From contig NZ_KE159567.1 in assembly GCF_000403845.2 (NCBI RefSeq), positions 1,372,911 to 1,436,910 of the forward strand: a stretch of DNA of 64,000 nucleotides, given 5' to 3'. Below, in pieces: positions 19,415-63,357 of the stretch. The notes under the pieces are model-generated. The model had not been told where the DNA came from. It ran no database searches and worked only from the letters and a program-made list of their open reading frames with translations. The DNA comes from Eubacterium sp. 14-2. Lineage in GTDB: Bacteria > Bacillota > Clostridia > Lachnospirales > Lachnospiraceae. Position 1 is the stretch's first letter, and every line of letters starts with the position of its first letter. The position numbers and the translations under genes were made by a program.

Positions 19415-20491
19415 ATGTTTGATAAATTAGAGGATATTCTTCTGCGGTTTGAAGAGATTATGAATCAGTTAAGCGAGCCGGATGTGGCGAATGATACCGG
19501 CCGTTTCCGCAAACTGATGAAGGAACAGAGTGACCTGACGCCCATAGTGGAAACTTATAAAGAGTACAAACAGGCGAAGCAGAATGCAGAGGATTCTCTT
19601 GCCATGTTAGAGGATGAAAGTGACGAGGAACTGCGGGAACTGGCCAGAGAAGAATTAAACGATTCCAAAAAGAAAATAGAAGAACTGGAAAAGAAACTGA
19701 AAATCCTGCTGCTGCCCAAAGACCCTAACGATGACAAAAACGTGATTGTGGAAATCCGTGCGGGAGCAGGAGGAGATGAAGCAGCATTGTTTGCGGCAGA
19801 AATTTACCGTATGTATGTCCATTACGCAGAAGGAAGACGCTGGAAAGTGGAAACAGTGGAATGTGAGGAAATCGGCATCGGCGGTATGAAGAATGTGACC
19901 TTTATGATTGCCGGGCAGGGAGCTTATTCTGTGATGAAATATGAATCTGGTGTACACCGGGTGCAGAGGGTGCCGGAAACGGAATCGGGCGGACGGATTC
20001 ATACCTCTACCATTACCGTTGCGGTTATGCCGGAAGCAGAAGAAGTGGACGTGGTTATTGATGAAAAGGATATCCGGATTGACGTTATGCGTGCGTCGGG
20101 AAATGGCGGGCAGTGTGTCAATACTACAGATTCTGCAGTGCGCCTGACCCATTATCCCACGGGAATCGTGATATACAGCCAGACAGAAAAATCTCAGCTC
20201 CAGAATAAAGACAAGGCGTTTGCCTTGCTTCGTGCAAAACTTTACGATTTGGAATGCCAGAAACAGCATGACGCAGAAGCAGAAGCCAGAAGGAGCCAGA
20301 TTGGTACCGGAGACCGTTCTGAGAAAATCAGAACTTACAACTTCCCGCAGGGACGAGTGACAGATCACCGGATAAATCTGACATTGTACAAGCTGGATAA
20401 AGTAATGAACGGGGATATACAGGAGATTCTGGACGCCTGTATGGCAGCCGACCAGGCGGCGAAGTTAAGCAGCTTTGAGGATAAGGGCTGA
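19415..20491 (+). CDS. prfA: Peptide chain release factor 1
   Basis: RF1 (358 residues) recognises UAA and UAG and releases the finished peptide. The GGQ motif lies in [19 protein letters not shown], and the PVT/PET-type codon-reading and [11 protein letters not shown] regions are present. The C-terminus is [15 protein letters not shown]. The last 15 codons and the terminator beyond are repeated at 58,501 and 63,164 with small changes, each ending in a stop at the same distance. This marks the gene's 3' end as a probable insertion site for the islands that follow. The gene itself is intact. Confidence 0.97.
20444..20491 (+). other. prfA 3'-end duplication, copy 0 (left island boundary)
   Basis: The native last 15 codons of prfA, starting GCAGCC. 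The block CAGGCGGCGAAG is identical in all three copies, and the 21-base core from the first codon differs by one base (C/T) in the other two. The homology continues through the terminator to TATGGATGTATGCATAGCC near 20,640-20,660. Confidence 0.75.
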
Positions 20492-20555
20492 AGGCCTTGA
20501 TTTTTCTGGGTTTCTGGGGATATCCGGCTAAAACGGGAATTGAATAAATATGGGT

Positions 20556-20594
20556 AAAAGACGGTCATGGACAGCTTCATCGACCGTCTTTTTT
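20556..20594 (+). terminator. Intrinsic terminator of the prmC-prfA operon
   Basis: AAAAGACGGTC (20556-20566) with GACCGTCTTTT (from 20582), then further T. The same terminator, slightly changed, follows the two downstream prfA-tail copies. Confidence 0.9.
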
Positions 20595-21042
20595 GTTTTT
20601 CCGGTTGCATGGATGCACTGTCTACCCCTATTTTGGTAGTATGGATGTATGCATAGCCTTGTAAAAATATATGTTCTTTTTTGCTTAGAAATGCCTATTT
20701 TATGCTGAGTTGAGGGATATTTTCAAGATGTAGGTGCGGTTTTATGGAGGTACTTCGAGCCTTACGATTGAATTGGAGCGATTTTAAGCTGAACAGGTAA
20801 TAGTTCCCTGAATTATAAGGGGAAAGGAAGTTTAAGAGAAGAAGAGGTACATTCCTTACGGTATAACAGGTAACATTTCTTTAACGTGTAGCGAGGAAGA
20901 AAATCTTGGCATATGTTGGGACAGGGTGGTATGCCATGTAAATAAATAGGTAATAGTTCCTTGGTGTATAGAGAAAAAAGAATTTCCCGCATTTTTTGGA
21001 AGGGAATGGAAAAAGAAATAGTTCTTTGATATAATTAGAGAA
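20595..21042. other. Non-coding left end of island 1 with an iterated motif
   Basis: About 450 bases without a credible gene. Four imperfect copies of A(A/T)AGGTAATAGTTC(C/T)(C/T)T begin near 20792, 20865, 20945 and 21012, that is every 69-80 bases. Each is followed by a purine-rich GAGGAAG/AGAGAAG stretch. The island-end motif TATGGATGTATG lies near 20,641. The region may be regulatory or the remnant of a lost upstream part of the mod operon. Confidence 0.5.
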
Positions 21043-22601
21043 GAGCAAAACGCATTGATTTTAAGATGAGATTTGACTGTTAGACTTTTAATGTTGAGGG
21101 AAGACGCTTTTTAGGCATAACAAAGCTAACGTAAGTCCAAAACCTACGAAAATCAGGGAGTATTCAGTTACAAAAGTCAGGCAGTCCGTTTTAAAGATTT
21201 TAGCTTGCGGTAGGATTGACCGGAATTGCCAGTAACTGCAGCAATGGCAACAGCCAAAAGACTGATATGGGCAAGTGTGTTTAGGTTTGCAACGGAGGAT
21301 TTGTTTCTTACCCACATCCGTTCCTGCCCCGTGTTTTTGAAGCGGGAATTGTAACGTTCACATTCCGTGCGGAGAAAATAGCTGCTTTTAAAATACCTGC
21401 TGTTCCTGTCGATGGAAAGCCGCAGGTCGTCCGCAATTGTAATGTATCTGGTACAGCCACGATGCTTTTTGCCATTATAAAAGTTTTTGTGATGGCATGG
21501 GCAGTCAGCATCTTTGGATGACTTTAATGGACAGCAGAACTTTTGGCGGGTGCGATTTCTATCAGAAAATTTACCATCCTTCCACATGGCAAGTCCTGCT
21601 TCACAGATGGGATTTCCCTGAGGAAGAAGTTTGGGATTTTTCGTATTACGTTTGTTTAATGGTATGATGCATTCCCCGTCATAGAGCTCTTTGACCTGGT
21701 TGTAAATCTTTTTTACATCATAGCCTTTGTCAGCAAGAAAGGTACACTCTGTAACAGGAAGGAAAGCATGAGTGCCAGCAAGGATATCAAGAGCGACTGT
21801 GGAATCTGCCACTTCAGCAGTTGTGGTCATTTCATAAATAGGGAGACCGGAGATGCAGTCTACGAGGACATGGTTTTTGTAACCCCAGTAGAATTCATAT
21901 TTCTTTTCGTTAGTCTGGTTGGAAGCTGTGTGTACACCGAGTTTACAGTGCTTATCTGCTTTTGGCTGGTTGTCAGGCTGGAATTTGTTAGAGAGGAAAG
22001 ACTTGGGATTGTTCTGTGATGTATTGGCAGAAACAGGGGTGGAATCCAGTCCTATGAAGGAGGTATCTATGATGCCATCTGCAGCAAGGGAAAGAACCTG
22101 TGACTGCATAATGTAGGAAAGAATGGAATGGTCAAAATCTTTCAGGAAGCGGTCAAAAGTCCAGTATGAAGGAAGCGGCAGGGAAATATCAAAGCCGCAG
22201 TAATGGGCAATGAGAAGATTGTTGTTGAGATAATCGACAAGGTCAGTAATCATGGGGAAGCCTTCACATTTCATGACAATGAAGGCACAAATCATGGCGT
22301 GGTTGGAAAAACCTTTACGTCCCGTTTTTGGGTATTCCTGAACGAAAGACAGATCAAGATTCAGGAAAAGGGAATCATAAAATTTAGCAACAGGTTGAGA
22401 GGTAAAAAGACGGATGTCTTGAATGATTTGTTGACGGTAGATAGCAATCAGCTCCTTTCGGTGAATTTGTTTTGGCAACTTAATTATACCATCTGGAGCT
22501 GGTTGTTACTATAAATACAGAACCAAAGGTTCTGGGAGTGATAAAAGAGGTTGCCATGCCTCGCAAATCCGCATAAATACTGAATGTGTGGAGTTTTGCT
22601 C
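21043..22601 (-). mobile_element. Insertion sequence with IS4/IS1182-type transposase
   Basis: The transposase is flanked by short terminal repeats GAGCAAAACNC: left end from 21043, right end complement ending at 22601. That gives an element of about 1.56 kb. The flanks show no clear target duplication, so the boundaries are provisional. To the right, the remaining 3' part of a type III mod gene begins at once, which suggests that the insertion (or a deletion beside it) removed the mod 5' end. Confidence 0.6.
21177..22478 (-). CDS. DDE transposase (IS4/IS1182-like)
   Basis: A 433-residue transposase. The N-terminal part (SFVQEYPKTGRKGFSNHAMICAFIVMK) is the helical DNA-binding region seen in IS1182-like enzymes. 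The DDE catalytic residues are likely the Asp in IGLDSTPVSAN, the Asp in FLADKGYD, and the Glu in RTECERYNSRFKN. A Cys-rich insert (CCPLKSSKDADCPCH) lies between the last two. The frame is complete, so the element may still be active. It is the only gene of this IS. Confidence 0.88.
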   Translation of the reverse strand: MPKQIHRKELIAIYRQQIIQDIRLFTSQPVAKFYDSLFLNLDLSFVQEYPKTGRKGFSNHAMICAFIVMKCEGFPMITDLVDYLNNNLLIAHYCGFDISLPLPSYWTFDRFLKDFDHSILSYIMQSQVLSLAADGIIDTSFIGLDSTPVSANTSQNNPKSFLSNKFQPDNQPKADKHCKLGVHTASNQTNEKKYEFYWGYKNHVLVDCISGLPIYEMTTTAEVADSTVALDILAGTHAFLPVTECTFLADKGYDVKKIYNQVKELYDGECIIPLNKRNTKNPKLLPQGNPICEAGLAMWKDGKFSDRNRTRQKFCCPLKSSKDADCPCHHKNFYNGKKHRGCTRYITIADDLRLSIDRNSRYFKSSYFLRTECERYNSRFKNTGQERMWVRNKSSVANLNTLAHISLLAVAIAAVTGNSGQSYRKLKSLKRTA

Positions 22602-23091
22602 ATGGCTATTAAATAAGAAATTAGGAGGTAATAGAAAATTTATTTTATGCACAAATAATGAAGGGGGAATATGTGATAATGTTACATATCCAAGATTATC
22701 AATTGTAATTAATGGTTTAAGATTAGATGGATCAATTTATGATAATAACATTCCTGCCAATCTAAAATATTATAAGACTGATTTTATACCAAAGTCATCT
22801 GATGATGAGTTTTATTCCGTAGGAGAGAAATTAATGGGGCATATAGGAGAAATGGTGCAATTAGAGCATAGCACCACTTTAAATAAGGAGCAATATCTTT
22901 TAATTTTAACGGATGATCAGGCTGACGAACTTGAACATAATGCGGAGAAGTTATATAAATGTAAAGGTATTTATATTTCAAGTTCAGTATTCCTTACAGC
23001 AAAACAAGAAAGGTTATTCAGTGGTAAAGCTCTCATAACCATACCAGATTATTATTTTGAAGATGAATTAAGGGAGAGTGGAGAGTTATGA
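22602..23091 (+). pseudogene. Type III R-M methyltransferase (Mod), C-terminal fragment
   Basis: About 160 residues that match the C-terminal end of type III Mod proteins: LGGNRKFILCTNNEGGICDNVTYPRL, then IPANLKYYKTDF, then a tail ending IPDYYFEDELRE. The catalytic DPPY motif and the SAM site, which lie upstream in the full protein, are absent because the IS ends just before. A GTG at 22588 is inside the IS end and is not a natural start. The stop (TGA 23089-23091) overlaps the start of res, as expected for a mod-res operon. Without its N-terminus it cannot methylate. Confidence 0.75.
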
Positions 23092-23261
23092 TGAAACAGT
23101 ATGATTTTCAGAATGAGGCCGTTGATTGGCTTTGTGGGGTATCAACTAACCCAGCTTCAAAACAAACAATTGTTTTAAAAGCACCAACAGGATCTGGAAA
23201 AACTGTTATTTTGATAAAATATATTGATAAATATTTGAATTTTGAAATAAAAACTTACTAA
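23088..23261 (+). pseudogene. Type III R-M restriction subunit (Res), N-terminal piece, cut by the ICE
   Basis: The first about 54 codons of res: MMKQYDFQNEAVDWL, then the helicase motif I APTGSGKTVIL. Chromosomal sequence ends at 23243-23249. The frame runs 12 bases into the ICE and stops at 23259-23261. The rest of the gene continues at 52,990 with the C-terminal part. The ATG overlaps the end of the mod fragment. Confidence 0.85.
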
Positions 23262-23388
23262 ATTTCTGATTATCTTTTCATAAGTTGGTAAATGCCGATA
23301 TATCCCGTATTTTAGGGCTTTATCGGTATTTTCTTTTTGGAAGATACCTTGCATAAGCTGGCATTTACCAGCATGAAAATGCAACCAA

Positions 23389-23410
23389 AAGTAGTAAATG
23401 AGTAGTAAAT
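23389..23410. repeat. Integrase arm-type DR2 repeats, left end
   Basis: Two direct copies of AGTAGTAAAT separated by one base, 14 bases beyond the int stop. The same pair recurs near the right end at 52,893. In Tn916 such DR-2 repeats bind the integrase N-terminal domain. Confidence 0.8.
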
Positions 23411-23423
23411 ATAAGCTTTGATA

Positions 23424-24614
23424 TTAACAAGCCAGTCTTTCCAGTTCTGCTTTTGCAGATTGAAATGTACCGTGTGCATAATAGCCAAGTGTCATGGTTA
23501 TGTTAGCGTGTCCCATGAGATATTGCAGGGTGTTTGGGTTCATTCCTCTGTTTGCCATATTCGTACAGTAAGTATGTCGGAATGAATGTGGTGTGATGTT
23601 CGGTAACTTGTCCGTGTGATACTTGTTATACTTCTTAATTAGTCCTCGCACCATGCCTTCATAGTTTCCTGCAACTTTAGGCAAGCCCTCACGGTTTAAG
23701 AATAGGAAATTGCTGTAACCACCTACAATCAGCGGTTGTGCTTTTCCTCTGCTCTTTAGTATTCTTTGGATTGCTTGATAAGCCCGTTCTGTCAATGGAA
23801 GTTCCCGTTTTCCGTTTTTGGTCTTAGGCGTTTCAATATAGTAGCCGATTTCGCTGTCTTTCAATAACTGGTGGTCTATATTGAGTATTCTGTTCTGCAT
23901 ATCAATATGCGTCGTTAGTCCGCAAAATTCAGAAATACGAAGTCCCGTTTCCAGCAGAAGCACAACCTCATCATAATACTTGCTGTAAATCTTATCCTTT
24001 TCCATAAAGGCAAGCAGGCGTTCTTCCTGCTCTGGTGTAAGGATAACTTTCTGCTCCGTATCATCTTCCAGAACATCACTTAGCTTAAATTCAAACGGGT
24101 TCTTTCTGATACAGTCGTCTTGTATCGCCATGTAAAATGACGCTTTCAAGGAACGCTTGTAGTTATCAATCGTTTTATAGGCATATCCTTTTTCACTCAT
24201 TCTGATAGCCCATTCTTTAGCGTCCGACTGCTTGACAGTATCAATCGCCCTCATACCCAACGGGTCATTTTTCAGAGCGTTCATAAGATACTGTCGTCCC
24301 TTTTCAGTAGCCCTCTTGATGTTCTTTCTTTGGCTGTTCTTCTTCTCGTAAAGCTGGCAAACTGTTATTTTACCGCCGACTGTGTCGATACCGTCGTTAA
24401 GGTCTTTTTTTATCTGTGCTTCTTTTTCCCTCAACGATATATCATCACGCTTTCCAGCAGGTGTCTTGTCTGTCGGTACAAGTTTCCAAGAATAGATAAA
24501 TTGTGGCTTTCCGTATATATCGGTATATTTATAAACGTATCTTCCGTCTTTTCGTTGGCTCTCTCCATTACGCAAATTGCGATTTTTACTGTCTTTTCGT
24601 TTTACATTAGACAT
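23424..24614 (-). CDS. int: Tn916-type tyrosine integrase
   Basis: A 396-residue recombinase that excises and integrates the ICE. The N-terminal arm-binding domain has RKDGRYVYKYTDIYGKPQFIYSWKLVPTD, as in Tn916 Int. The core-binding helical domain follows. The catalytic domain has Arg in ETGLRISEFCGLT, HSFRHTYC (His-x-x-Arg), a further His in GHANITMTLGYYAH, and the Tyr nucleophile in that last motif. AAGGAG precedes ATG 24614. The gene is next to the left end of the element, with xis just upstream. It looks complete, so mobility is possible. Confidence 0.96.
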   Translation of the reverse strand: MSNVKRKDSKNRNLRNGESQRKDGRYVYKYTDIYGKPQFIYSWKLVPTDKTPAGKRDDISLREKEAQIKKDLNDGIDTVGGKITVCQLYEKKNSQRKNIKRATEKGRQYLMNALKNDPLGMRAIDTVKQSDAKEWAIRMSEKGYAYKTIDNYKRSLKASFYMAIQDDCIRKNPFEFKLSDVLEDDTEQKVILTPEQEERLLAFMEKDKIYSKYYDEVVLLLETGLRISEFCGLTTHIDMQNRILNIDHQLLKDSEIGYYIETPKTKNGKRELPLTERAYQAIQRILKSRGKAQPLIVGGYSNFLFLNREGLPKVAGNYEGMVRGLIKKYNKYHTDKLPNITPHSFRHTYCTNMANRGMNPNTLQYLMGHANITMTLGYYAHGTFQSAKAELERLAC

Positions 24615-24692
24615 AGTGTAAAGCTCCTTTCCGTCATGGAATGAGCCGTGATACGCTATACCTTATTATACCATATCTACGGCTCAATGACA

Positions 24693-24896
24693 TTAGATTT
24701 CGTCCAATGTATCTATGATTTTTTCAAATTGTTTTCGCTTAATCTGAATACGGTTGCCGTTCACGATAACCCAGCCAGCGTCAAGATTTTCTTCAGCTAA
24801 TTTACGCAATTTCTTTTCGCCAATGCGGAAGTATTTAGACGCTTCTTCAATCGTCAGCGTATATTTTTCCCAGATAGGCACATCAGTATTGTTCAT
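24693..24896 (-). CDS. xis: Tn916-type excisionase
   Basis: A 67-residue winged-helix excisionase ([32 protein letters not shown]), nearly the same length as Xis of Tn916. It bends DNA at the element ends and directs Int to excision. AAGGGGGTG precedes the start. It lies 78 bases upstream of int on the same strand. Confidence 0.94.
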
Positions 24897-25271
24897 AATC
24901 TATGCACCCCCTTTACTGTGTGTTATTTTTTACAAGCAGGCAGACGGCTTTGGAAAACTCCGTTAGTATCTCAACTATTCCCATTCTTGTGGGCAGAACC
25001 GCACCATGCGGACGTATCATTATTCTGTGAGGATAGGTCGTGGCAAAACGACTTTTCCAACAGTCGCTCTCGGATCACTGCGTGGGTCGCTCGCTTTCTT
25101 TTGAAAAGGTCGTGGCGTACAGTCCCCGTGGCTCGCTATCTCACAAACGTATCTGTCTGCTTTATTCAGTTGTCAAAGAGCTGTGGCGAAAGCGTGTTGC
25201 TTTCATGTGTAAAAACAGTAGTGGAGCAGGAAAGAGGGGGGGACATTAAATCATGCTCCGCTAAAAACTGC
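24897..25271. other. Intergenic region upstream of xis, no convincing gene
   Basis: About 375 bases. Short frames on the + strand have no ribosome site and no recognisable protein. On the minus strand TTGACA (near 25172) could be a weak -35 for xis-int, but its -10 is poor. In Tn916 the corresponding segment also holds regulatory DNA and short orfs. Confidence 0.4.
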
Positions 25272-25526
25272 TTATTCTTCTGGTTCTAAGTTCATATCTT
25301 CAATATCAAATCCTAAAATCATTTTGATAAGTGCTTCTCTGATACGTCCTTTTAATTCCATATCTACAACGATATAAACATTTCCATATTCATCATAGAG
25401 TGAACGTAAACAGCATTTTGATATGTACGGGTCATAAAATGCCAGCAATTTCTCAATCGCTTTTTCGTTTCCGTCCATAGCTGATGAAATCAAGTAATAG
25501 GACGGCTTCTTAAATAACTGTTTCAT
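25272..25526 (-). CDS. Tn916 Orf8-like helix-turn-helix protein
   Basis: An 84-residue protein like Orf8 of Tn916: SSAMDGNEKAIEKLLAFYDPYISKC, then DMELKGRIREALIKMI. The first helix pair resembles the start of sigma-factor region 2. It directly follows the orf7 sigma-like gene (3-base gap) and has AGGAGG before its start. In Tn916, orf7 and orf8 promote transcription of the transfer genes through the circular joint; the same role is likely here. Confidence 0.88.
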   Translation of the reverse strand: MKQLFKKPSYYLISSAMDGNEKAIEKLLAFYDPYISKCCLRSLYDEYGNVYIVVDMELKGRIREALIKMILGFDIEDMNLEPEE

Positions 25527-25529
25527 TTT

Positions 25530-25949
25530 CTAATGTTCCTCCTTGAGTATCTTTTTCATAGTTTCCAAAGCGTGATGTCGATTTCTAAATACACCGCTTT
25601 GCGTGATTTTCTGCAAGTTAGCAATTTCACTTTCTGTCATTTCCAAGAAGTAATACATCAACAGAGTATTTCTCTTTCTTTCTGGAAGCTTCTTCAAGGC
25701 TTCTGCCAATTCATCATCAAGGACACGAATATCAATGCCACATACTGAAAAGATTGTATAATCTGTTTCGTAGTCGTCCCAAACAGCCATTTTATCAATA
25801 AGGACATCTGGCAATTCGCTGAAAGATATTTCTTTATTCTTACGACGGTTTAATTCCTTGTAATAATCTTTCACGACACTACGGACAACTTTCTTTAAAC
25901 AACTTTCAAAACGACATTGAACTGTTTTTTGGAAGTCAGACGGTTTCAT
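25530..25949 (-). CDS. Sigma-70-like regulator, Tn916 Orf7 type
   Basis: A 139-residue ECF-like sigma factor. A region-2-like helix (CRFESCLKKVVRSVVKDYYKELNRRK) is followed by region 4 (EALKKLPERKRNTLLMYYFLEMTESEIANLQKITQSGVFRNRHHALETMKKIL). ATG 25949 is chosen because AAAGGAGGTG lies just before it; the frame extends upstream without a ribosome site. It is coupled with orf8. It lies downstream of the BceRS cargo but is separated from it by a terminator-like hairpin. Confidence 0.9.
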   Translation of the reverse strand: MKPSDFQKTVQCRFESCLKKVVRSVVKDYYKELNRRKNKEISFSELPDVLIDKMAVWDDYETDYTIFSVCGIDIRVLDDELAEALKKLPERKRNTLLMYYFLEMTESEIANLQKITQSGVFRNRHHALETMKKILKEEH

Positions 25950-26072
25950 CAATCTCACCTCCTTTCCTTTATGATTTGAAAAGTGTTTATCCCTCTTTCC
26001 GCACCATATAAGGACAGCTAGGTGTGATTTAATGACCTCTTTTGAAAAATTTTTAAATTTTTTTCGGGTATG

Positions 26073-27903: not shown

Positions 27904-27945
27904 TTCCACACCCCCTTGATTTACCATTATAATAATTTCACAGCA

Positions 27946-43176: not shown

Positions 43177-44373
43177 CTAACTTTCCACCAAATCTTTTGC
43201 AGGGGTCGTCTGCTGTTTGATTATCATTTCATGCTTTTCTGTGAGCTTTGCCTGCTGTTCGATTGTTTCCATGTAGTCTGTACCGTTTCCCTTATCAATC
43301 TTTTTCAGCATTTTCAAGGTCGGTGCTACCTGCCTTTGTACCCACCGCAATGTACGGTCTAAGGTGTAAGGCTCTGGCTTTGTCGTCAGCTTCAAGCTCT
43401 GTCTGTTATATCCGATAAACCAAGCCCAGCGGTCATTGAGTTTCCAGTCATTTTTTCGCTTGTCTGGTTCTTCATCAACAAACCGCACATACTGATTGAT
43501 GATAGAAAAGGCGGTCTGCTCTGCGTCATAATAGGTCAGCAAATCTCGTACTGCATAATAGGCTCGTTCATTGCGAAGCCGTATCTCAAAACGATTGATA
43601 ATGTCGGCTTCTTCCAGAGGTGTCCCTAACTTGACGTACTGTTCATAGTCCTTTTCATAAATACAGAAATACACATCTGATTTCAGAGAACCAAGATAAA
43701 GGGTACGTCCCATATATTCTCTGTCGTCCTCTCTGTGCTTGATAAGCTCGCCCGACTGGTAAAACTTATAGCTTCTGGACTTTCCGATATATTCCCGTTT
43801 CCTGCATTTTTCCGCAAGCTCTGGAATATCCAAAATGCCCGTATGGTCGTTGATAGCAAGGTCGATACGCTTCATCACGCCACCGTCTATGAGTGCGTCC
43901 ATGAGAAAGTCATACCAGCTTCTTTGCTGTGCCAGCAGGTAACTTTCAAACTGTCTGCAACCACGCCCCTTTAATTCTAAAAGGACACCTTTTTCTTCGT
44001 CAGCCGACGTATAGATAAAGATGTCCCCTAATGAATAATGCTCCGTATAACTGTAATGTCCGTAATCTTCATGGAGCATATAATTGATATTCAATTTTAA
44101 TATATCTTTGATGATGTGCTGTATATCCAGCGTGGGAAAACGAATTTTCACATAATCAAACAGCATGGTAAGCGGTGCTTCTGGATTGAACCTTGCCAGT
44201 TCTTTATGCAGAGTTTCCAGAAGTTCCTTTGACGGCTTCATTTTTCCGCTTTCTATCTTGTTGAGATATTCCCTTGTGATACCAGAAGCCACCGCCAGCC
44301 TGCCTTGTGAGATACCGTAAGCAATCCGTTTCTCCCGTAATTCTTTTATCCATTGTTCTTCATTCAGAACCAT
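43177..44373 (-). CDS. MobT-type relaxase / replication initiation factor (Tn916 Orf20)
   Basis: A 398-residue rolling-circle-type relaxase of the MobT (Rep_trans) family. An N-terminal Cro/C1 helix-turn-helix (about 10-65, LRVASGITREYLNKIESGKMKPS-like) precedes the catalytic domain with RIDLAINDHTG and the NRFEIRLRNERAYYAVRDLL region. It nicks oriT and starts transfer and replication of the circular ICE. The candidate oriT lies 120 bases upstream of its start. Confidence 0.94.
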   Translation of the reverse strand: MVLNEEQWIKELREKRIAYGISQGRLAVASGITREYLNKIESGKMKPSKELLETLHKELARFNPEAPLTMLFDYVKIRFPTLDIQHIIKDILKLNINYMLHEDYGHYSYTEHYSLGDIFIYTSADEEKGVLLELKGRGCRQFESYLLAQQRSWYDFLMDALIDGGVMKRIDLAINDHTGILDIPELAEKCRKREYIGKSRSYKFYQSGELIKHREDDREYMGRTLYLGSLKSDVYFCIYEKDYEQYVKLGTPLEEADIINRFEIRLRNERAYYAVRDLLTYYDAEQTAFSIINQYVRFVDEEPDKRKNDWKLNDRWAWFIGYNRQSLKLTTKPEPYTLDRTLRWVQRQVAPTLKMLKKIDKGNGTDYMETIEQQAKLTEKHEMIIKQQTTPAKDLVES

Positions 44374-52705: not shown

Positions 52706-52730
52706 AGTTTAATGCTCCTTTCATTTTTGG

Positions 52731-52989: not shown

Positions 52990-55041
52990 CAATGTAAACA
53001 TACTGCTTTTGTGTGGTTATGTCCTGGCAAGGGTGACCTTGAGGAACAAAGCAGACAGAAAATGCGGGAGTTTTTGCCTGCAAGACAAACAAATGACTTG
53101 TTTGATGTTTTAATAAATGGTTTTGAGGCTGGTTCAACGACCTTTATTAATTGGGAAAAAGTAACAAAGAAAGGGAATAGAGCTATTACGGATGGTGAGA
53201 GAAAAAATCTTTATGAGCGTATTTTACAAGCTCATAAAGATGGAATGTCTTTTGTGCTGATTGTTGACGAGGAACATAGCAATAATACTACGAAGGCTCG
53301 TGATATTATTGATTACTTTATGGCAGAGCATATTATTCGTGTTTCAGCTACTACAATTGCAAATAAAGATGTTGAATATAAGGAAATTGATGAGCAGGCT
53401 GTAATTGATGAGGGTTTAATAACTTCTGCAATTAGTGTTAATGAAGGGATTGAGTCTGGTACGGCTGAAGATGATAGTTTATTATTGGAATTAGCTAATA
53501 CAAAGAGGAAAGAAATTTATGATGAGTATAAAAATTTAGGAAAAGATATTAGACCGTTAGTATTGATTCAGTTTCCAAACGGTGAGCCTGAGAAGATTGA
53601 AACAGTAGAAACTAAATTAGAACAAATGGGGTATTCGAGAAAGAATAGAACGGTAGCAGCTTGGTTAAGTGGTGACAAAGATGATATCCCAGATAATCTT
53701 ACTGAAAACAATAGTGAGTTAGCTTTTTTGTTCATAAAACAAGCTATTAATACAGGTTGGGATTGTCCAAGAGCTAAGATTCTTGTTAAATTAAGAGAAG
53801 GTAGTGGAGAAGCATTTCAGGTACAAACCATTGGTAGGATAAGAAGAATGCCTGAACAGATGCATTATGATATACCAGTTCTTGATTTGTGTTATGTATA
53901 TACTTTTGATAAAGAATTTAAAACAGGCCTCCTTGCTGGATTAGATAAGGCATATATCCCTAAGAGATTATTCTTGAAAGAGAAGTGTAGAGTTTTAGAA
54001 TTACCAAAAGAATTACGAGATATGGATGGTGGTACAGTAGATTTAAGAGAAGTGTATAAGAAGGTAAGGAATTACTATGTAAAAAAGTATGATCTCAATT
54101 TTAATAAAGAATTAAATAAGGGAAAGTTGTCTAAGGATTATAAATTTGATAAGAATTTGTTAGGACAGGTAACAAATGGGATATTTGTTTTAACAGATAC
54201 TATTGGAGAAGGACATTGCTATGTGGATACATCGACACCAGTTAACACAAGTGAACATGGCATTTTGATGCGTCACACTATTGATAAATTTAAAAATGTT
54301 TTAGGAATACAGGCTGAGAGCATTAGAAATATTCTTGAGAAACTTTTTTGTTTTAAACATGGTAATAGGGATAAATTATTAGAGTTAAGTATTAAAGACT
54401 TTTATGCCTTTATTATTAATAATAGTCATGAAATAAATGAGGCTTTCAAAGATTTAGTATCAGAAGTAAATGTACAGAATAGGATGTTAGAACCCAAAAC
54501 TAGTATATTTAAGATTCCTATGGAAGAATTATATCATTTTGATCCAATGGAGAAAAACCATACTGTTATTGAAAGCAATGCATATAAAGATTATACAATG
54601 GAGTATGTGACTTCTAATTGTGGCAAATCTGACTCAGAAATTTTATTTGAGAAATTCTGCGAAGTTCATAAAGATAAGATTGATTGGGTATACAAAAATG
54701 GTGACAGTGGTCAGCAGTATTTATCTATCGTTTATTGTAATTTTATAACTGGGATTCAGAAATTATTTTATCCAGATTATGTTATAAAGGTAAAAGATGA
54801 TGATATTGTTTGGGTTATAGAGGCAAAAGGTGGCCAGAAGGGTAAACGTGATAACAATATTGATAAACAGGTTGGTAATAAGTTTGAAACCTTCAAGAGA
54901 TATGCTGATCAGTATAACCTGCATTGGGGGTTTGTGAGAGATATGAATAAAGATCTTTATTTTAATAATACAGAATATGTATCTGATTTGTATGATGATA
55001 AATGGGTTCCATTAGAAGATGCTATTTTTAGCAATAGGTAA
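52990..55041 (+). pseudogene. Type III R-M restriction subunit (Res), C-terminal part beyond the ICE
   Basis: The frame continues from the ICE junction as QCKHTAFVWLCPGKGDLEEQSRQKM and runs to 55,041 (about 683 residues). Helicase motifs are II VDEEH, III VSATT, and VI QTIGRIRRMPEQ. The C-terminal endonuclease domain has the PD...E-x-K pattern in YPDYVIKVKDDDIVWVIEAKG. Motif I lies on the other side of the ICE (23,088). Without it the piece cannot hydrolyse ATP. GTG 53011 is an internal codon (V of FVWLCPG), not a proven start. Type III Res needs Mod, which is also broken. Confidence 0.9.
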
Positions 55042-55325: not shown

Positions 55326-55565
55326 ATGTTTGGAAAGAGAATGACGTGGGAAGAAATTCAGGAAAAATATCCAGATAAATGGGTTGGGCTTGTTGATGTA
55401 AAATATGTAGACGACGATGGGATATCCATTGAGTCCGCAGTTATAAAATATCTGGACAAATCAAAGAGTGAATTAACGAAAAAGGCATTAAATGGTGAGA
55501 TTGTTTCGAGATATACAACGCCAGATAATATTTTCCAGTTGTGCATGTTGGGGGTATTGCGATGA
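55326..55565 (+). CDS. TWEEIQ-type small protein, island 1 copy
   Basis: A 79-residue protein: MTWEEIQEKYPDKWVGLVDV, then AVIKYLDKSKSELTKKALNGEIVSRYTTPDNIFQL. It is a clear paralogue of the 80-residue protein at 62,191 (about half the residues agree, including TWEEIQE.YPD.WVGL and RYTTPD). AGAGGATAGG lies upstream as the ribosome site. In the other copy the next gene encodes a retropepsin-like protein that overlaps by ATGA. Here the same ATGA overlap exists but the second gene is dead. Function unknown. Confidence 0.75.
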   Translation: MFGKRMTWEEIQEKYPDKWVGLVDVKYVDDDGISIESAVIKYLDKSKSELTKKALNGEIVSRYTTPDNIFQLCMLGVLR

Positions 55566-57145: not shown

Positions 57146-58176
57146 TTAATTTTTCGATATGGAATTTTCATGGTTTTCATTCTCTTAAGAAATTTCTGGA
57201 AGTTATTGGAGAAAATCGGATTGTGGTTCAGAAACCCAGAAAACCATATAGAAACTGTGAATTGAAAAATGAAATAGGGATTTTTGAAGGTTTTGGAGAT
57301 TTTTCAATTGCTACAATGGAATGTATGGGTGAGACGATAGAATTTGTTGCAGTTGGGACAAACTGTCCAATATGCAGAAAAAATCAGGAAATAGATGAAT
57401 ATGAAGTAAGAGATATTATACAAAGAATCATTGCATTTGAGAAAAATGGTATCTTAAAAGTTGTTATATTGGCATCACAAAGAAACGCAGAAGTAGTTAT
57501 CAAAAGGATTTTTAGTAATGAATTAATTTGGGGAGAAATTACAGCGGATGAATATGTTTCGGAGGATATGCTGTATTGGTTGTTTTATCGTTTACGAGAA
57601 ATGCAAGATGAATTGATTGTTCAGGAACCCAAAATGTTCCTAAATGGAATAATAAGTTATTTAGGGCGTACAAACGATAAAATTAATGCTGTTAGAGGAA
57701 TAGGTATTAGAGTGTCAGCATTGTTAGGTACATTAGGTATGCTTTTAGGAGAAGAGAGTTTGCGTGCGCTTCGACCGATAATACAATTTGGAGAACATGA
57801 ATTAAATATAGAGCTATTTATTGGAAATAGCGGAAAGATATATCCCAATAAGTATATTGGACCATATTCAGAAGAAGCAGATAATTTAAAGTTAGATATA
57901 GATTTAGTAATACTTGTATGTAAGTATATTTTACCAAATATAAAAAAAGGATACAAAGATAGTTGTGATAAGCAGGAATGGTCTATTTATATTAAGCGTG
58001 TTTTTCTAAAGGCAGTTGGGAATGAGATGTCTGAAAAAATAAAGAAGGTAATGCAAAGTATTGAATTAGACATAGAAAGGTATGAGGAGGATAATGGAAG
58101 GTTAAGTGAAGATAGGGATTATACGGAAATAGAAGAATTGCTTGACGAGGAGGATTTAGAGGAAGAAATAGAGTAA
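57142..58176 (+). CDS. Unknown protein 3 of the three-gene operon
   Basis: A 344-residue protein: MINFSIWNFHGFHSLKKFLEVIGENRIVV, a CPIC pair near residue 76, a helical middle (EVRDIIQRIIAFEKNGILKVVILAS), then FIGNSGKIYPNKYIGPYSEEADNLKLDIDL and a strongly acidic tail (EIEELLDEEDLEEEIE). The first 170 residues alternate strands and helices. No catalytic signature was recognised. GAGGAG precedes ATG 57142. It is the last gene before the right end of island 1. Confidence 0.7.
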   Translation: MINFSIWNFHGFHSLKKFLEVIGENRIVVQKPRKPYRNCELKNEIGIFEGFGDFSIATMECMGETIEFVAVGTNCPICRKNQEIDEYEVRDIIQRIIAFEKNGILKVVILASQRNAEVVIKRIFSNELIWGEITADEYVSEDMLYWLFYRLREMQDELIVQEPKMFLNGIISYLGRTNDKINAVRGIGIRVSALLGTLGMLLGEESLRALRPIIQFGEHELNIELFIGNSGKIYPNKYIGPYSEEADNLKLDIDLVILVCKYILPNIKKGYKDSCDKQEWSIYIKRVFLKAVGNEMSEKIKKVMQSIELDIERYEEDNGRLSEDRDYTEIEELLDEEDLEEEIE

Positions 58177-58307
58177 AAATGTTAGAATGATAAGAATCAG
58201 AAACATTTATTTGATAAGAAATTAAGGTAGAGATGTATCTGAGTTAAGAAGATGATAGATACTATCATGAGAAAGTTTACAATGCTATTTCTGGTAGTGC
58301 TTTGTTG

Positions 58308-58500
58308 GTAAAGTGTGAGGTTATTATGTATAATGTATATTTTGTAGGAGCCTTGCTGAGTAATCTGGATTTTGCATATGTATGCTGACAGGGATAGCTG
58401 TGTTTGTTCCGAGCCTTTTACAAAGAGGCGTTTGTACACAGCCCATTTGTGCATAGCAGCATTTGTTCCGAGCTTGTTATTTTAGCAACGTTTGTTCCGT
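58308..58500. repeat. Right end of island 1: conserved tail with four ~30-bp-spaced motifs
   Basis: This stretch is homologous to 62,970-63,163 at the end of island 2. In it GTTTGTTCCG, GTTTGTACAC, ATTTGTTCCG and GTTTGTTCCG begin at 58402, 58430, 58461 and 58490 (spacing 28, 31, 29). The last one abuts the duplicated prfA tail. Spacing near three helical turns suggests binding sites on one face of the DNA. The preceding 58,177-58,307 holds no gene. Confidence 0.75.
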
Positions 58501-58548
58501 GCAGCCGATCAGGCGGCGAAGCTGGCGAATATGGGTGAGAGCGCCTGA
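58501..58548 (+). other. prfA 3'-end duplication, copy 1 (boundary between the islands)
   Basis: Fifteen codons that read [15 protein letters not shown] and a stop, against [15 protein letters not shown] in prfA. The CAGGCGGCGAAG core is identical, and the stop is at the same distance. The homology continues to the terminator and TATGGATGTATGTATAGCC beyond the IS66. Confidence 0.8.
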
Positions 58549-58610
58549 GAGTTGTGTTTGGGCGGTGGTTTTGGAAAAGTCAGCATAGATGAGAATCGAA
58601 TAAAAATGGA

Positions 58611-58650
58611 AAAAGACGGTCACAGGCAGCTTCTCTGACTGTCTTTTTTG
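58611..58650 (+). terminator. prfA-type terminator, copy 1
   Basis: AAAAGACGGTCA with TGACTGTCTTTTTT, a diverged copy of the terminator at 20,556. Confidence 0.8.
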
Positions 58651-58741
58651 TTTTCTGGGCTTTATGGACGCACTGTACGTAAGCGATAAATAAAACAGTG
58701 CCTTGCCAAAAAGAAAGGATTGGTTCTCACCAGTCCAATCG

Positions 58742-60280
58742 TTAGCGTTTGCATTCGGCTCGTACAGATTCTGACCATGGCATCAGGTAGTCCAATTGAG
58801 CCGGATCGTTGAGCCAGTCTGTGTCTGGCATATACAGGAGTAAGTATTCGAGGTAAGTATAAACATTGAGATCGTTTGCTTTGGCTGTCTCAATGAGACT
58901 ATACACTGCAGCTGATGCAGCAGCTCCTTTGGGAGTATCAGCAAACAGCCAGTTCATTCTTCCAACAGTAAACGGTCGGATGGCATTTTCAGCAGCGTTG
59001 TTTGAAATCGCAAGTCGTCCATCCAAAAGGTAATTCTCCATGTATGTTTTCTGGTTTCTGGCATAGACCACAGCTTTTCCCAGGGCAGAACTTTTGAGGA
59101 AGGTAAGATTTTCGAGCCAACGCCAAAAAGCCTCAAGGACTGGTTTTTCCAGTTCGAGACGTTTGTGAAATCGTTCATCCGGGGATAAATCCTTCAGACT
59201 GTCTTCGATTTTAAACAGCTGGTTGCAGTAATCTCTTCCGATTTCAGCACTGGTCAGGGAAGCATCTTTGCTTTTCTTAGCCGGTATAGCTTCAACGAAC
59301 TTCCTTCTTAGATGAGCCCAGCAGCCGCAACGGGTGATATCTTTCAGCTTGTTGTAGCCGGAGAATCCATCGGAATGCACATATCCTCGGAAACCTTTCA
59401 GATATGTGGCAGCATGCTCACCATTTCTGGAAGATTGGTAATCATACAGGACAATAGGGGCTCTTTCATCGTTCCCTGTTCGGTAAAGCCACATATAAGA
59501 CTTGGTCTGTGGCTTTTTACCTTCTTCCTTTAGCACCTGGACTGGCGTTTCATCACAATGGACGATATCTCTGGAAAGCAGTTCTTTTCTCAGGTGTTCA
59601 ACTATCGGCATGAGATAATCCTGAGAACATCGGATGACCCAGTTGGCCATGGTTGCTCTTGATAAGGAGATTCCAAGCTGCTCCCAGTCTTTTTCCTGAC
59701 GATAGAGAGGAACGCTGTTCCCATACTTCTGATACATGACATTGGCTACTGAACTTGGAGACGCAAGCGAATGATTCAGTAAAGATGTCGGTGTCAGGGC
59801 TTTCTGAATGTATGGATGATCTGTGTGTTTGCACTTAGGACATTCATAAGACATACGGACATACCGAACAATCTGAAGCTTTGCAGGAATGTATTCCAGT
59901 TCTTCACGGACAGTTTCCTTTCCCAGCGGTCTCAGCGAAGAATGACAGTCAGGACAGATTTGATCTTCTGGTGCTGATTGGCAGAGGATCTCACGAACGG
60001 GAAGGTTTTTAATAAGTTCTTCGCGTTTGGCCCTTGCATTGACTCTGGTATAACTACGGACATCTTTTTTGATTGGTTCCATAACAGAACCATCGGCCTC
60101 AAGTTCAGCTTCATTAAAAAGAGACAGTTGTCCCTCGATCTGTTTCGGAGTCTTCTCACTGGAAGAACCAAACTTTTCTTTGCGAAGGAGCATAACCATC
60201 TCTGTAAGATTGCTGACCTGATTCTGTAAGTCCTTTATGGTGTTTTCAAGGCGCTGGATATAAGCATCTTTTGTAGTCAT
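58742..60280 (-). CDS. tnpC: IS66 transposase TnpC
   Basis: A DDE transposase of about 512 residues. It has an N-terminal leucine-zipper-like coiled coil (RLENTIKDLQNQVSNLTEMVMLL), a zinc finger (CPDCHSSL and CPKCKHTDH), and the catalytic core with Asp in IVHCDETPVQV, Asp in GYVHSDGFSGYN, and Glu in SNNAAENAIRPF. The family end EYLLLYMPDTDWL is present. ATG 60280 (MTTKDAYIQRLE) is preferred over 60301 on similarity to IS66 starts; neither has a strong ribosome site. Confidence 0.96.
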   Translation of the reverse strand: MTTKDAYIQRLENTIKDLQNQVSNLTEMVMLLRKEKFGSSSEKTPKQIEGQLSLFNEAELEADGSVMEPIKKDVRSYTRVNARAKREELIKNLPVREILCQSAPEDQICPDCHSSLRPLGKETVREELEYIPAKLQIVRYVRMSYECPKCKHTDHPYIQKALTPTSLLNHSLASPSSVANVMYQKYGNSVPLYRQEKDWEQLGISLSRATMANWVIRCSQDYLMPIVEHLRKELLSRDIVHCDETPVQVLKEEGKKPQTKSYMWLYRTGNDERAPIVLYDYQSSRNGEHAATYLKGFRGYVHSDGFSGYNKLKDITRCGCWAHLRRKFVEAIPAKKSKDASLTSAEIGRDYCNQLFKIEDSLKDLSPDERFHKRLELEKPVLEAFWRWLENLTFLKSSALGKAVVYARNQKTYMENYLLDGRLAISNNAAENAIRPFTVGRMNWLFADTPKGAAASAAVYSLIETAKANDLNVYTYLEYLLLYMPDTDWLNDPAQLDYLMPWSESVRAECKR

Positions 60281-60375
60281 TTGGCACGATTCCCTTATCA
60301 TTTTTTGATAAGATAATTATACCACAAAAGGTGACACAAAGCCAGTAAAATCAAGTGTTTACGACACTTTTGCAA

Positions 60376-60732
60376 TTAACAAAAATCAGCTTTTTCGGCG
60401 GGCAGGATACGAGATTTTTGCTCGATTTCCAAACCTTCCATCAGCCATCTGAACTGTTGCCAGGAAATCGGTTTTACATCACCTTCCCTGCGTGGCCATT
60501 GGAAGTTTCCGTTTTCCAATCGCTTATACAAGAGAAGGAATCCATCTCCTTCCCATAAGAGAACTTTGATTCGATCCCGGCGTTTCCCACAGAACAGGAA
60601 CAAATTCCGGGAGAATGGATCCAAATGGAACTGCTCTTGCACAACAGCAGCAAGTCCATCGATGGATTTACGCATATCTGTATATCCACAAGCAATGTAA
60701 ATGTTTTCCGCAACAGTGATATCGCCTAACAT
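60376..60732 (-). CDS. tnpB: IS66 accessory protein TnpB
   Basis: A 118-residue IS66 Orf2 protein: YIACGYTDMRKSIDGLAAVVQEQFHLDPFSRNLFLFCGKRRDRIKVLLWEGDGFLLLYKRLE, the family core. Needed for transposition, with unclear role. It overlaps the end of tnpA by 7 bases. Confidence 0.97.
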   Translation of the reverse strand: MLGDITVAENIYIACGYTDMRKSIDGLAAVVQEQFHLDPFSRNLFLFCGKRRDRIKVLLWEGDGFLLLYKRLENGNFQWPRREGDVKPISWQQFRWLMEGLEIEQKSRILPAEKADFC

Positions 60733-61085
60733 ATACTTTGCAGTGCAAGAAGAACTGCCTGAACTGTCTGTTGACCTGCGCCTTCATTCACTTCCACAGT
60801 TGCATTTGGAAGACGAATGATAACGGCTGCTTTTGTATCTGGAAATGGAGACATTACCTCTAACTTTTTGAAAGCAACTGTTTTCTCAGGAGCAGTTGCC
60901 GGAACGGGAAGATTCTGACAGAGTTCTTCTCGAAGCTTCTTTAGATTTCGGTAGTATGTTTGCTCACAAATGCCTTTCAGCTCACACCAGGCCGTAACCG
61001 TCATGCCGCTGGACTGGCATTCCTTAATGAGAGATTTCCATTGCTCTCGTTTTAGATATTTACGAACTTTAGTAACTTGATCCAT
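60726..61085 (-). CDS. tnpA: IS66 accessory protein TnpA
   Basis: A protein of about 119 residues with an N-terminal helix-turn-helix (YLKREQWKSLIKECQSSGMTVTAWCELKGICEQTYYRNLKKLRE) and a C-terminal part with VIIRLPNATVEVNEGA. It is the first gene of the IS66 operon. ATG 61085 follows GGAGG; GTG 61091 overlaps that site. Confidence 0.93.
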   Translation of the reverse strand: MDQVTKVRKYLKREQWKSLIKECQSSGMTVTAWCELKGICEQTYYRNLKKLREELCQNLPVPATAPEKTVAFKKLEVMSPFPDTKAAVIIRLPNATVEVNEGAGQQTVQAVLLALQSIC

Positions 61086-61340
61086 AGACACCTCCGACTG
61101 GCATTACTATGCACAACTATAACTGGTAACACTATACAGTTGTTCGGAATCATTATCTCATGGATCTTAATCGGATATAAGGCACTCATTTATTGAGCGC
61201 TTACCACTGTACACCTCTATTTGGGCGGTATGGATGTATGTATAGCCTCTGACGGAAAAAGCGGTGGTTCTTTTTGGTTGCGGTGGTATTGGGCTGTGTG
61301 ATATACTTATGACAATATAAAAAATTGTATATAAACATAT

Positions 61341-62054
61341 ATGATGGTGCAAATAAAACCCAATACAAAAAGTAAAATAGAAGACGAATATTTAAAATTT
61401 ATATTTGAGAGTCCTGAGACGAATGCTGATGAAGCGTTATATGAATATTTGAAGGATAATATTTGGATTCAACATTTTAAATTGGCATATAAAGAGCATT
61501 TAAAAAATAAAGAAAATTGGATTGATTTTGAGAGTGAAATTTCACAGGTAATTCAGAATGTGGATGAATTATACCATGCGTATATGGAGAAAGATGGAAA
61601 TTTTTATGAAGCAAAGATAAAGCGTTGTAAGGAAAAATTGCCAGGAAGTTTTTTGAATTATCTGCCACATGAACAGGGAATTGGAAATCTTATTTCGATT
61701 ATGATGAAAGATTTAAACAGGTTGATTGGGGCTTTAGAGATCTATATTTTTGATTACATAGACAACTGGAGAAGGATTGAATATTATAATCCTGATATAG
61801 ACGCAATCCATCCAGATGCAATTCTTTCTTTTAATTATTCCGATACGTGGAAGAGGATATATGAATATAACAGGGGGAATGTAAAATATAGTTTTATCCA
61901 TGGAAAAGCACAAAGCATACCATATACATTTAATATGGATAAGTGTATTGATAAAAATCAGATGGTACTTGGCATTGATGAGTATCTGCCTGGGGACAGG
62001 AGAAACAAAGAAGTGGAATTTATTAATAAAATTGTCGAGAGGGGCAGCCGATAA
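61341..62054 (+). pseudogene. AbiH-like abortive infection protein, truncated
   Basis: This 237-residue frame has the middle and C-terminal hallmarks of AbiH: WIDFESEISQVIQ, ILSFNYSDTWKRIYEY, SFIHGKA and MVLGIDEYL. The usual N-terminal GNGFD-LAH-type nucleotide-binding motif is missing; the start at 61341 lies directly in mid-domain. The C-terminal end beyond DEYL is also short, and the frame breaks near 62,040. It is probably a remnant, left by deletion at the island's left end. A functional short form cannot be excluded. Confidence 0.65.
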
Positions 62055-62190
62055 AATTTCAAGGGAGACATTGGAGGAATTTTGGAAGTTTGGGAAAAGG
62101 AAGCATTAGGGATATGGCAGGCGATAAAGTATTGGCTGCATGGTAAGAAATTCGAACGTAAAATATAGAAAAATGCAGGGAGGTTTTTGT

Positions 62191-62433
62191 ATGTCTGAAA
62201 GATTAACATGGGAAGAGATTCAGGAAAGATACCCGGACCAGTGGGTAGGATTAGCAGAGGTAGAATATGAACCAGATAATGATGCAACGATAAAGACTGC
62301 AATTGTGAAATATACGGATAAGTCGAAAAATGAGCTGACAAGGATGCAGATTCAGACAAATGGAGAAATTTTGGGAAGATACACAACGCCGGATCATGTT
62401 TTTCAGCTGGGAGTAGTGGGGTATTTCGGATGA
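62191..62433 (+). CDS. TWEEIQ-type small protein, island 2 copy
   Basis: An 80-residue protein: MSERLTWEEIQERYPDQWVGLAEVEYEPDND, then AIVKYTDKSKNELTRMQIQ and GRYTTPDHVFQLGVVGYFG. GGGAGG precedes ATG 62191. The stop overlaps the retropepsin-like gene start (ATGA). A paralogue is at 55,326 in island 1. Small proteins of similar size precede retropepsin-like genes in other bacteria, so a partner, inhibitor or substrate role is plausible, but it is inference. Confidence 0.8.
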   Translation: MSERLTWEEIQERYPDQWVGLAEVEYEPDNDATIKTAIVKYTDKSKNELTRMQIQTNGEILGRYTTPDHVFQLGVVGYFG

Positions 62434-62888
62434 GGCAATTTACATTGAATATGAACATAAAATACCAAAGACCAATTGTTGAACTGAAGTCATGGCATAA
62501 TTTTGAGGCGTTGCTGGATACGGGTGCATTTTTTCCTGTTTGGACAGTTGATGAAACGATACTTGAAATGCTGGGCGGCACATTTTTAAGGAAGGATATT
62601 ACTTTTAGTGGTTTTGGAGGAAGGACGAAAGGAAATTTATATAAGCTGCAAAGTATGGTGATCGGTGATTTGATTTTCCCTAATACACATATTATAGCCT
62701 GTAAAGATTTGCAGGACGTTCCTTTTCAGCTAATTTTAAGCGCGACAATGTTCCAAAACCTGATTTACGAAATTGATGATAAAAACCATAGGTTCAATGT
62801 CACAATACCGGATGATGAAAGCAATGTAAGGAATCTTAGAATTGAAGATGCAAATGGAAGATTGCATATTCTGTGCCATTCTGCCTGA
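62430..62888 (+). CDS. Retropepsin-like aspartic protease domain protein
   Basis: A 152-residue single-domain protein. The catalytic motif is LLDTGAFFPVW (Asp30-Thr-Gly-Ala). A flap-like FSGFGGRTKG follows near residues 64-73, and the second hydrophobic-hydrophobic motif is LILSATMFQNLIYEID, where Ser replaces the usual Gly. It lacks a second DTG, so it should work as a dimer, as viral retropepsins do. No signal peptide is seen. It is translationally coupled to the TWEEIQ-type gene. The protease activity and target are not known. Confidence 0.78.
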   Translation: MRQFTLNMNIKYQRPIVELKSWHNFEALLDTGAFFPVWTVDETILEMLGGTFLRKDITFSGFGGRTKGNLYKLQSMVIGDLIFPNTHIIACKDLQDVPFQLILSATMFQNLIYEIDDKNHRFNVTIPDDESNVRNLRIEDANGRLHILCHSA

Positions 62889-62969
62889 AAAAAAGCCTGG
62901 TTTATAGGAATAGCAGCAGGAAAATAAGGTTTTCAATGAGTCAGGTAAGACAGTTTGTATTTGGCAATG

Positions 62970-63163
62970 AAAAGTGTGAGGTTATTCTGGAACGTGCATA
63001 TTTTCAACATAATTTTGACATGTAAGCTGAATTTTCCGGATGTCTGCTGCTGGGGTATGGCTGTGTTTGCTCCGATCCTTTTGTATAGCAACGTTTGTAC
63101 ACAGCCCTTTTGGGCATAGCAGTGTTTGCTCTGCGCCTGTTATTTTAGCAACGTTTGTTCCGT
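62970..63163. repeat. Right end of island 2: conserved tail with four ~30-bp-spaced motifs
   Basis: Homologous to 58,308-58,500. GTTTGCTCCG, GTTTGTACAC, GTTTGCTCTG and GTTTGTTCCG begin at 63064, 63093, 63124 and 63153 (spacing 29, 31, 29). The array again ends exactly at the prfA-tail copy. The stretch 62,889-63,641 contains no confident gene. Confidence 0.75.
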
Positions 63164-63211
63164 GCAGCCGATCAGGCGGCGAAGCTGAGCAGCTTTGAGG
63201 ATAAGGCCTGA
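63164..63211 (+). other. prfA 3'-end duplication, copy 2 (right island boundary)
   Basis: Fifteen codons that read [15 protein letters not shown] and a stop, one residue different from native prfA. The following about 130 bases also match the native downstream region to the terminator. The island-end TATGGATGTATG motif is absent after this copy, so it may be the original chromosomal right flank. Confidence 0.8.
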
Positions 63212-63274
63212 AAACCTTAATTTTGCCGGGTTTCCGGGGATATCGTGCTATAACGGGAATTGAATAAGTATGGG

Positions 63275-63315
63275 AAAAAGACGGTCATGGACAGGTTCAT
63301 GGACTGTCTTTTTTG
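63275..63315 (+). terminator. prfA-type terminator, copy 2
   Basis: AAAAAGAC...GTCTTTTTT with an inner GGTCATGGAC/GTTCATGGACT pairing, homologous to the terminator at 20,556. Confidence 0.8.
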
Positions 63316-63357
63316 TTGCCGGGGGATTGGATGGTGTGGTATACTTATGCTATGTAG

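Follow-up and report, generated by a model that had tools for sequence, protein, structure and literature searches.

Recombinase-less cassettes stacked at the 3' end of prfA in a Lachnospiraceae genome, with likenesses to SCC elements and ssrA islands

We analysed a stretch of 64,000 nt from Eubacterium sp. 14-2 (Lachnospiraceae; genome G000, C1:1372911-1436910; hereafter the window), in which the last codons of prfA, the gene for release factor RF1, occur three times. We consider it likely that a family of small, stacked cassettes attaches at the 3' end of prfA, and that these are moved by a large serine recombinase of ~655 aa. The cassettes in the window are without a recombinase, and by analogy would work like SCC (staphylococcal cassette chromosome) elements and ssrA islands. 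The evidence, all of it read from sequence, consists of the repeated tails, the arms in front of them, the stacking, a jump in identity at one short block of prfA, a terminator borne by the element, and the linkage of the recombinase to such tails in two genera.

In the mechanism that we suggest, a cassette's own site would be a version of the last prfA codons plus a terminator. Strand exchange within the block coding for AADQAAKL would leave prfA open and give it the cassette's tail and terminator, while the old tail would end up on the far side of the cassette, after its right arm; RF1 would presumably function normally. Because the new prfA end would still resemble the target, a further cassette could insert in front of it, and tails would stack with the newest closest to prfA.

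Results

Three tails and three cassettes

The block, GCAGCCGACCAGGCGGCGAAGTTA, lies at 20444-20467 inside the tail of prfA that we call copy 0. As the original prediction stated, the last 15 codons of prfA recur at 58501 (copy 1) and 63164 (copy 2), each with an in-register stop, and sequence matching finds the same terminator behind all three copies. The copies are mutually 78-88% alike, which is far beyond chance: 20444-20597 matches 63164-63317 over 154 nt at 88%, and for copies 1 and 2 the likeness includes upstream sequence (58391-58524 and 63054-63187, 134 nt at 87%). A common right arm of ~190 nt, not listed in the original prediction, precedes the tail in copies 1 and 2. A common left end follows copies 0 and 1; behind copy 1 it is interrupted by an IS66-type insertion sequence (IS) with the 8-bp duplication CACTGTAC on either side (58671-58678 and 61205-61212). 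A motif said to follow both of these copies, TATGGATGTATGYATAGCC, is indeed found at 20640 behind copy 0; for copy 1 its counterpart is at 61229, beyond the IS66-type element.

Serial insertion at the prfA 3' end, as originally proposed, agrees with our results, but the number of islands does not. The stretch 63307-63349 behind copy 2 is 81% like the cargo-promoter part of cassette B, which points to a third, decayed cassette to the right of copy 2, so that the stack would consist of A, B and a decayed C rather than two islands (Table 1). The last 22 residues of a 140-aa open reading frame (ORF) behind copy 2 match genome G301 directly past its second aspartyl protease, and sequence shared with G322/G323 resumes at ~64845, beyond the window end. 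Cassette A, with a type III restriction-modification cargo, would later have been hit by an IS and by a Tn916-type element; B carries AbiH. The Tn916-type element (23424-52705), which has a replication initiator at 43177-44373, separates the methyltransferase fragment from the Res-like gene.

Table 1. Features of the window, with putative cassette assignments.
Coordinates	Strand	Feature	Basis
19415-20491	+	prfA (RF1); last 48 nt are tail copy 0	translation, tail comparison
20468-21036	+	left end of cassette A: tail codons, terminator (20551-20595), TATGGATGTATGCATAGCC at 20640; 97.5% to G311	sequence comparison
21177-22478	-	DDE transposase (DDE_Tnp_1) within cassette A	family search
22588-23091	+	type III methyltransferase C-terminal fragment, cassette A cargo	MTase_III 9e-36
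23424-24614	-	Tn916-type integrase; later element splitting cassette A, outside the cassette system	family search
53011-55041	+	type III restriction (Res)-like protein, cassette A cargo	family search
55335-55553	+	cassette A relic of the 97-aa right-end gene	57% over 75 aa
55797-58176	+	three cassette A ORFs (204, 245, 344 aa), no confident family	family search
58310-58500	+	right arm of cassette A with TTTG boxes	arm comparison
58501-58548	+	displaced tail copy 1, terminator behind; left end of cassette B	tail and terminator comparison
58679-61204	-	IS66-type element in cassette B left end; CACTGTAC duplicated on both sides	sequence comparison
61205-61340	+	remainder of cassette B left end	sequence comparison
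61341-62054	+	AbiH-family gene, cassette B; start shorter than the 337-aa form in G299	family search
62140-62433	+	97-aa right-end gene, cassette B	weak PDC-M08A match
62430-62888	+	152-aa retropepsin-like aspartyl protease, cassette B	family search
62971-63163	+	right arm of cassette B	arm comparison
63164-63211	+	displaced tail copy 2, element-type terminator behind; probable left end of cassette C	tail and terminator comparison
63307-64000	+	putative decayed cassette C: cargo-promoter stretch 63307-63349; ORF from 63615 leaving the window	sequence comparison

An identity break at the block

Tail and prfA body differ in their nearest relatives, and the change falls at the block. Over the 400 nt before it the window is nearest to G322/G323 (88.2%), whereas over the 150 nt after it tail 0 is nearest to G311 (94.0%) and then G308 (93.3%), and tail 1 to G300 (98.0%) and then G307 (96.7%). 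The prfA bodies of these four genomes are 83.0-83.5% like that of the window (G311 83.5, G300 83.0), or 82.5-84.6% over longer stretches by BLAST. The left end of cassette A is 97.5% identical to G311 over 569 nt, and the right part of cassette B 98.8% to G300 over 898 nt, with a gapped left part at 91.7%. Tail and left end are 93-99% like other genomes whose prfA body is at 82-85%. Site-specific insertion would produce such a break at the block; the tails appear to track cassette ends rather than host relatedness, and the claim that each island brings a replacement tail is borne out.

Alternatively, a serine recombinase may have inserted the cassettes once, the recombinase-less ones then spreading between species by homologous recombination, via ends or flanks in common or as part of larger elements, and not by a recombinase in trans. 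Shared ends and stacks supply the homology for this, the G311 cassette looks like a fusion of two stacked ones, and the window's own genome has no close recombinase (26% identity in the best match by E-value, among the matches listed). Ordinary exchange would, however, be expected to carry prfA sequence along, and identity changes at the block itself while upstream prfA stays at 82-85%; we therefore hold this route to be rather unlikely and favour site-specific insertion.

The likeness between prfA and the displaced copies sets in with the first Ala codon of the block. The third base in G300 and G321 is unlike that of their own prfA, which would put the exchange within the first two bases; the ASDQ tails of G176, G303 and locus L066 suggest a point further right, or drift.

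Displaced tails and an empty site in the genus

Twenty-nine genomes of the genus were compared, G000 included; prfA was found in 28, G314 giving a weak paralogue match only. Displaced tails were mapped with arm and tail queries (BLAST in the genus) and then on fetched loci. Islands behind prfA, which the original prediction had proposed to look for in relatives, were found: 10 of the 28 genomes with prfA have a displaced tail behind such an arm, namely G000 (two), G311, G300, G301, G176, G303, G306 (two), G312, G321 and G324. Tail and prfA share a contig in G000 and, at distances of 1.97, 3.8, 4.2 and 6.2 kb, in G300, G311, G176 and G301, respectively. Some trace of a cassette is seen in 21/28 genomes, the 11 additional ones having either a left end, terminator or right-end relic with no right end recovered (G299, G307, G308, G322, G323, G325 (weak), G315, G316, G318) or the terminator alone (G319, G313). 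No trace was found in the remaining 7/28: G304, G310, G309, G302, G305, G317 and G320.

An empty site had also been suggested as a thing to look for, and G304 provides it: there is one prfA tail, no such terminator and no cassette trace, and prfA runs into a gene (endoglucanase-like, judged by eye) whose relatives stand beyond the cassettes in G306 contig 212 and G301. Three tails in island-free relatives would have told against island insertion; G304 has one. With the gene end repeated at the far boundary in 10/28 genomes and an empty site, the cassettes have the features of a site-specific element at a gene 3' end. Chance or plain segmental duplication of the prfA end would likewise give several similar copies in one genome. 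We find it hardly credible: arm and left end are conserved at the boundaries, which contradicts duplication without boundary correlation, cargo varies by genome, the empty site exists, and body and tail have different nearest relatives.

At L066 (Lachnospiraceae B79_4_CH_BP) prfA ends AADQARKLCILNQEM and ASDQAAKLVKMGEN follows 2.6 kb further on; the insert between the two tails holds a RelA/SpoT-domain gene and gave no recombinase match. A DNA scan of 107 prfA loci for displaced tails (L070 was cut short, with no usable tail) returned four genus loci and a chance-looking L077, with none on the control strand; it missed L066, which was one of three matches in a peptide scan, the other two looking like chance. 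The arm pattern matched the own genome alone among 299 family genomes, because arms diverge, and neither one junction stretch searched against plasmids nor another against phages gave a match. Periodicity of the arms is only suggestive: a period of 29 bp ranks first in 9/14 arms, and in 5/14 the best autocorrelation value is reached in no more than 5% of 500 shuffles. In G300 (L146 ~2445-2490) and G321 (L176) the displaced tail comes after the apparent first TTTG arm box, which looks as if exchange had used another box or boxes had been deleted. G305 has, at a locus without a recognised cassette end (L168 1032-3761), an Snf2-type and a YhcG/PDC-S02 gene directly behind prfA.

The terminator belongs to the element

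The window's 45-nt terminator was scored in the 276 nt after the block, where 859 random stretches reach 24 at most. The 28 genus genomes fall into two clearly separated groups, 19 scoring at least 27 (G325 only 27) and nine at most 18. Among the 14 displaced tails the terminator is present behind five (window copies 1 and 2, G312, G306 contig 209, G303) and absent behind nine (G311, G300, G301, G176, G306 contig 212, G321, G324, G181, L066). Its absence at 9/28 prfA genes and 9/14 displaced tails indicates that the terminator is part of the element's left end. For each of the five terminator-bearing displaced tails the best interpretation is then the left end of another cassette, and copy 2 would be that of the decayed cassette C. 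We considered copy 2 as the native tail and rejected this, given its element-type terminator and the cassette-B-like stretch behind it. The original prediction took copy 0 as native; it is the tail prfA wears now, and with the terminator absent behind prfA in nine genomes its native status is not demonstrable.

Of 80 named prfA loci three were too short to score, and 2/77 reach 27 (L039, L003). L003 matches the queries in the same way as G325, while L039, with tail, terminator and left-end motif and no cassette right end seen, is scar-like. G322/G323, nearest by prfA body, have neither island A nor island B; they retain remains of a cassette, and their prfA has the tail ANMGESA as in window copy 1, a pattern that fits insertion of cassette A in front of an older cassette.

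A large serine recombinase linked to the tails

The original prediction saw no matching recombinase inside the islands, and neither the window's cassettes nor the window as a whole have a recombinase match at E 0.01; cassettes A, B and C would thus be movable only with a recombinase in trans. The tail-linked recombinase that had been called for was found in G306 and relatives, and in G181 of another genus. In G306 an apparent full unit comprises a small ORF, the recombinase P0001 (655 aa), a 97-aa gene and an aspartyl protease gene, the right arm and a tail. P0001 has the domains of a large serine recombinase (Resolvase PF00239, 3.5e-21; Recombinase PF07508, 2.3e-11) and appears distantly Ccr-like, far below the cut-offs of 700-900 bits (CcrA 56.4, CcrC 51.1, CcrB 36.5). 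Its sole sequence match among solved structures at E 0.01 is a fragment of a putative conjugative-transposon recombinase. Recombinases of >60% identity occur in 5/29 genus genomes, all in cassette sequence (among the matches listed): intact in G306, broken in G303 and G312, and reduced in G176 and G311 to C-terminal remnants, which lie between prfA and the displaced tail. The G311 cassette (L145 700-1720) combines a window-A-like left end, a gene start and the recombinase C-terminus.

In other genera, strict cut-offs returned 1/250 and 1/397 genomes, both times G181; an order-wide search gave 0/392 and carries little weight, as the draw held no known positive. The G181 recombinase is 42% identical to P0001, and the displaced tail AADQSAKLANMNE* begins 210 bp past its stop, behind repeated boxes; its prfA, on another contig, ends differently, with AADQAIRLSGLDEDK. 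Phages (184 records) and plasmids (100) gave matches that are all below 60% identity and 24-28% in the best 8 of each, and viral contigs gave none. A small ORF overlaps the recombinase gene start in both genera (L173 oriented 1073-1261; L214 oriented 1016-1291), possibly a directionality or accessory factor.

A stretch corresponding to window 61265-61333 comes after the recombinase in G312, and part of it in G311. The window has this stretch joined to the left end, and cassette B accordingly looks like an internal deletion that has lost its recombinase. The G312 gene is followed by left-end sequence of the B type and a piece of AbiH, on a contig without prfA. G300 and G299 have the same left end and AbiH as cassette B, and G307 has the same left end; the recombinase-less form is thus shared between species.

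Tyrosine integrases often target gene 3' ends. Such an enzyme, or the Tn916-type integrase of the window, might instead move the islands: tyrosine integrases are present in 29/29 genus genomes, and gene 3' ends are frequent targets according to PMC5704250. The enzyme adjoining the tails in two genera is, however, a serine recombinase, and the Tn916-type Int belongs to the element that splits cassette A; we regard this alternative as very improbable.

Cargo and the right-end gene pair

Besides the cargo of the window, G301 carries HD-CE and HATPase (G324 has the same protein start), G306 ResIII/DEAD and Helicase_C, L066 the RelA/SpoT domain with a weak PDC-S33 match, and G311 two proteins of no convincing family. 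On family names alone, the cargo probably serves anti-phage defence. Pfam gives no family for the genes that come first in the G306 and G303 islands, and a reading of these as type III methyltransferases was rejected.

The 152-aa protease has 17 matches in 13/29 genus genomes. Eleven, of at least 65% identity, are located at cassettes in 9/10 right-end genomes (G301 and G306 twice); no arm or tail was found at the second G301 copy. Of the other six, four are cassette-associated relics (G318, G316, G312 and one in G306), and two, on G325 contig 94 and in G000 at 1684593 (35%), lie elsewhere or are unplaced. Ahead of the protease is the 97-aa gene, which has repeated copies in G306 and G303; cassette A has no protease match. 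We conjecture that the pair has a role in the cassette system.

Discussion

SCC elements use a serine recombinase, insert at a gene 3' end (that of rlmH), form composite islands and have recombinase-less forms, all of which the prfA cassettes share. They are nonetheless not SCC, since the target is prfA and no Ccr model is above its curated cut-off. The Dehalococcoides ssrA islands have a Ccr-related serine recombinase, a single-copy target whose 3' end is repeated at the boundaries, and a tandem arrangement, and 15/31 islands are without the integration module (PMC3146451). The prfA cassettes resemble them in each of these respects. According to the same source, the ssrA target is a tmRNA rather than a protein gene and the module has six genes with a second small serine recombinase; for prfA, by comparison, the swapped tail encodes altered amino acids and brings a terminator.

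PMC5704250 describes cis-mobilizable elements (CIMEs), which have lost integration genes, keep attachment sites and stand in tandem with other elements. The window cassettes are similar, having no recombinase match and both ends kept in A and B. As for movement by a related element, the observation at hand is that recombinase-less cassette B sequence occurs in different species. The cassette proteins searched gave no recognisable conjugation or mobilisation function, a difference from integrative and conjugative (ICE) or mobilizable (IME) elements. IMEs with site-specific serine recombinases are described in PMC5704250 as disrupting dispensable genes, unlike the prfA cassettes, which leave their target open. 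A partial literature search, judged from its listings, found no apparent description of RF1/prfA as a serine-recombinase site.

Several points weigh against our interpretation. The evidence from G300/G321 and from G176/G303/L066 differs on the exact exchange point, which is unsettled. The intact recombinase was seen in one genus genome only (among the matches listed), on a contig without prfA; in 5/10 genomes, and in G181, prfA and displaced tail are on separate draft contigs; and the second cassette of G301 has no recognised right end. The G322/G323 tails are only 80-82% like copy 1, so that one event shared with the window is not proved. Tyrosine integrases lie ~8-11 kb downstream of prfA in G309 and G315 (L160 ~6330-10124; L159), although no displaced tail was found in the fetched stretch of either. 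No excised circle or recombinase activity has been seen.

With these points in mind we still favour cassettes moved by the serine recombinase, and we tentatively extend the proposal, as a possibility about which we have real doubts, to a cassette system of the Lachnospiraceae's own that docks at RF1. Rare recombinase-bearing siblings would move recombinase-less defence cassettes between species in trans, each insertion would swap the RF1 C-terminal tail and terminator, and the 97-aa gene and retropepsin-like protease would belong to the system and not to the cargo.

If the proposed mechanism is right, the C-terminus of a translation factor has been exchanged repeatedly by mobile DNA. The recombinase, the attachment block and the markers (tail, terminator, arm) would make a hidden hotspot of defence-like genes recognisable in gut bacteria, and the movement of recombinase-less cassettes in trans becomes directly testable. 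Such a serine recombinase, inserting at the end of a gene without closing it, could also make a useful integration tool.

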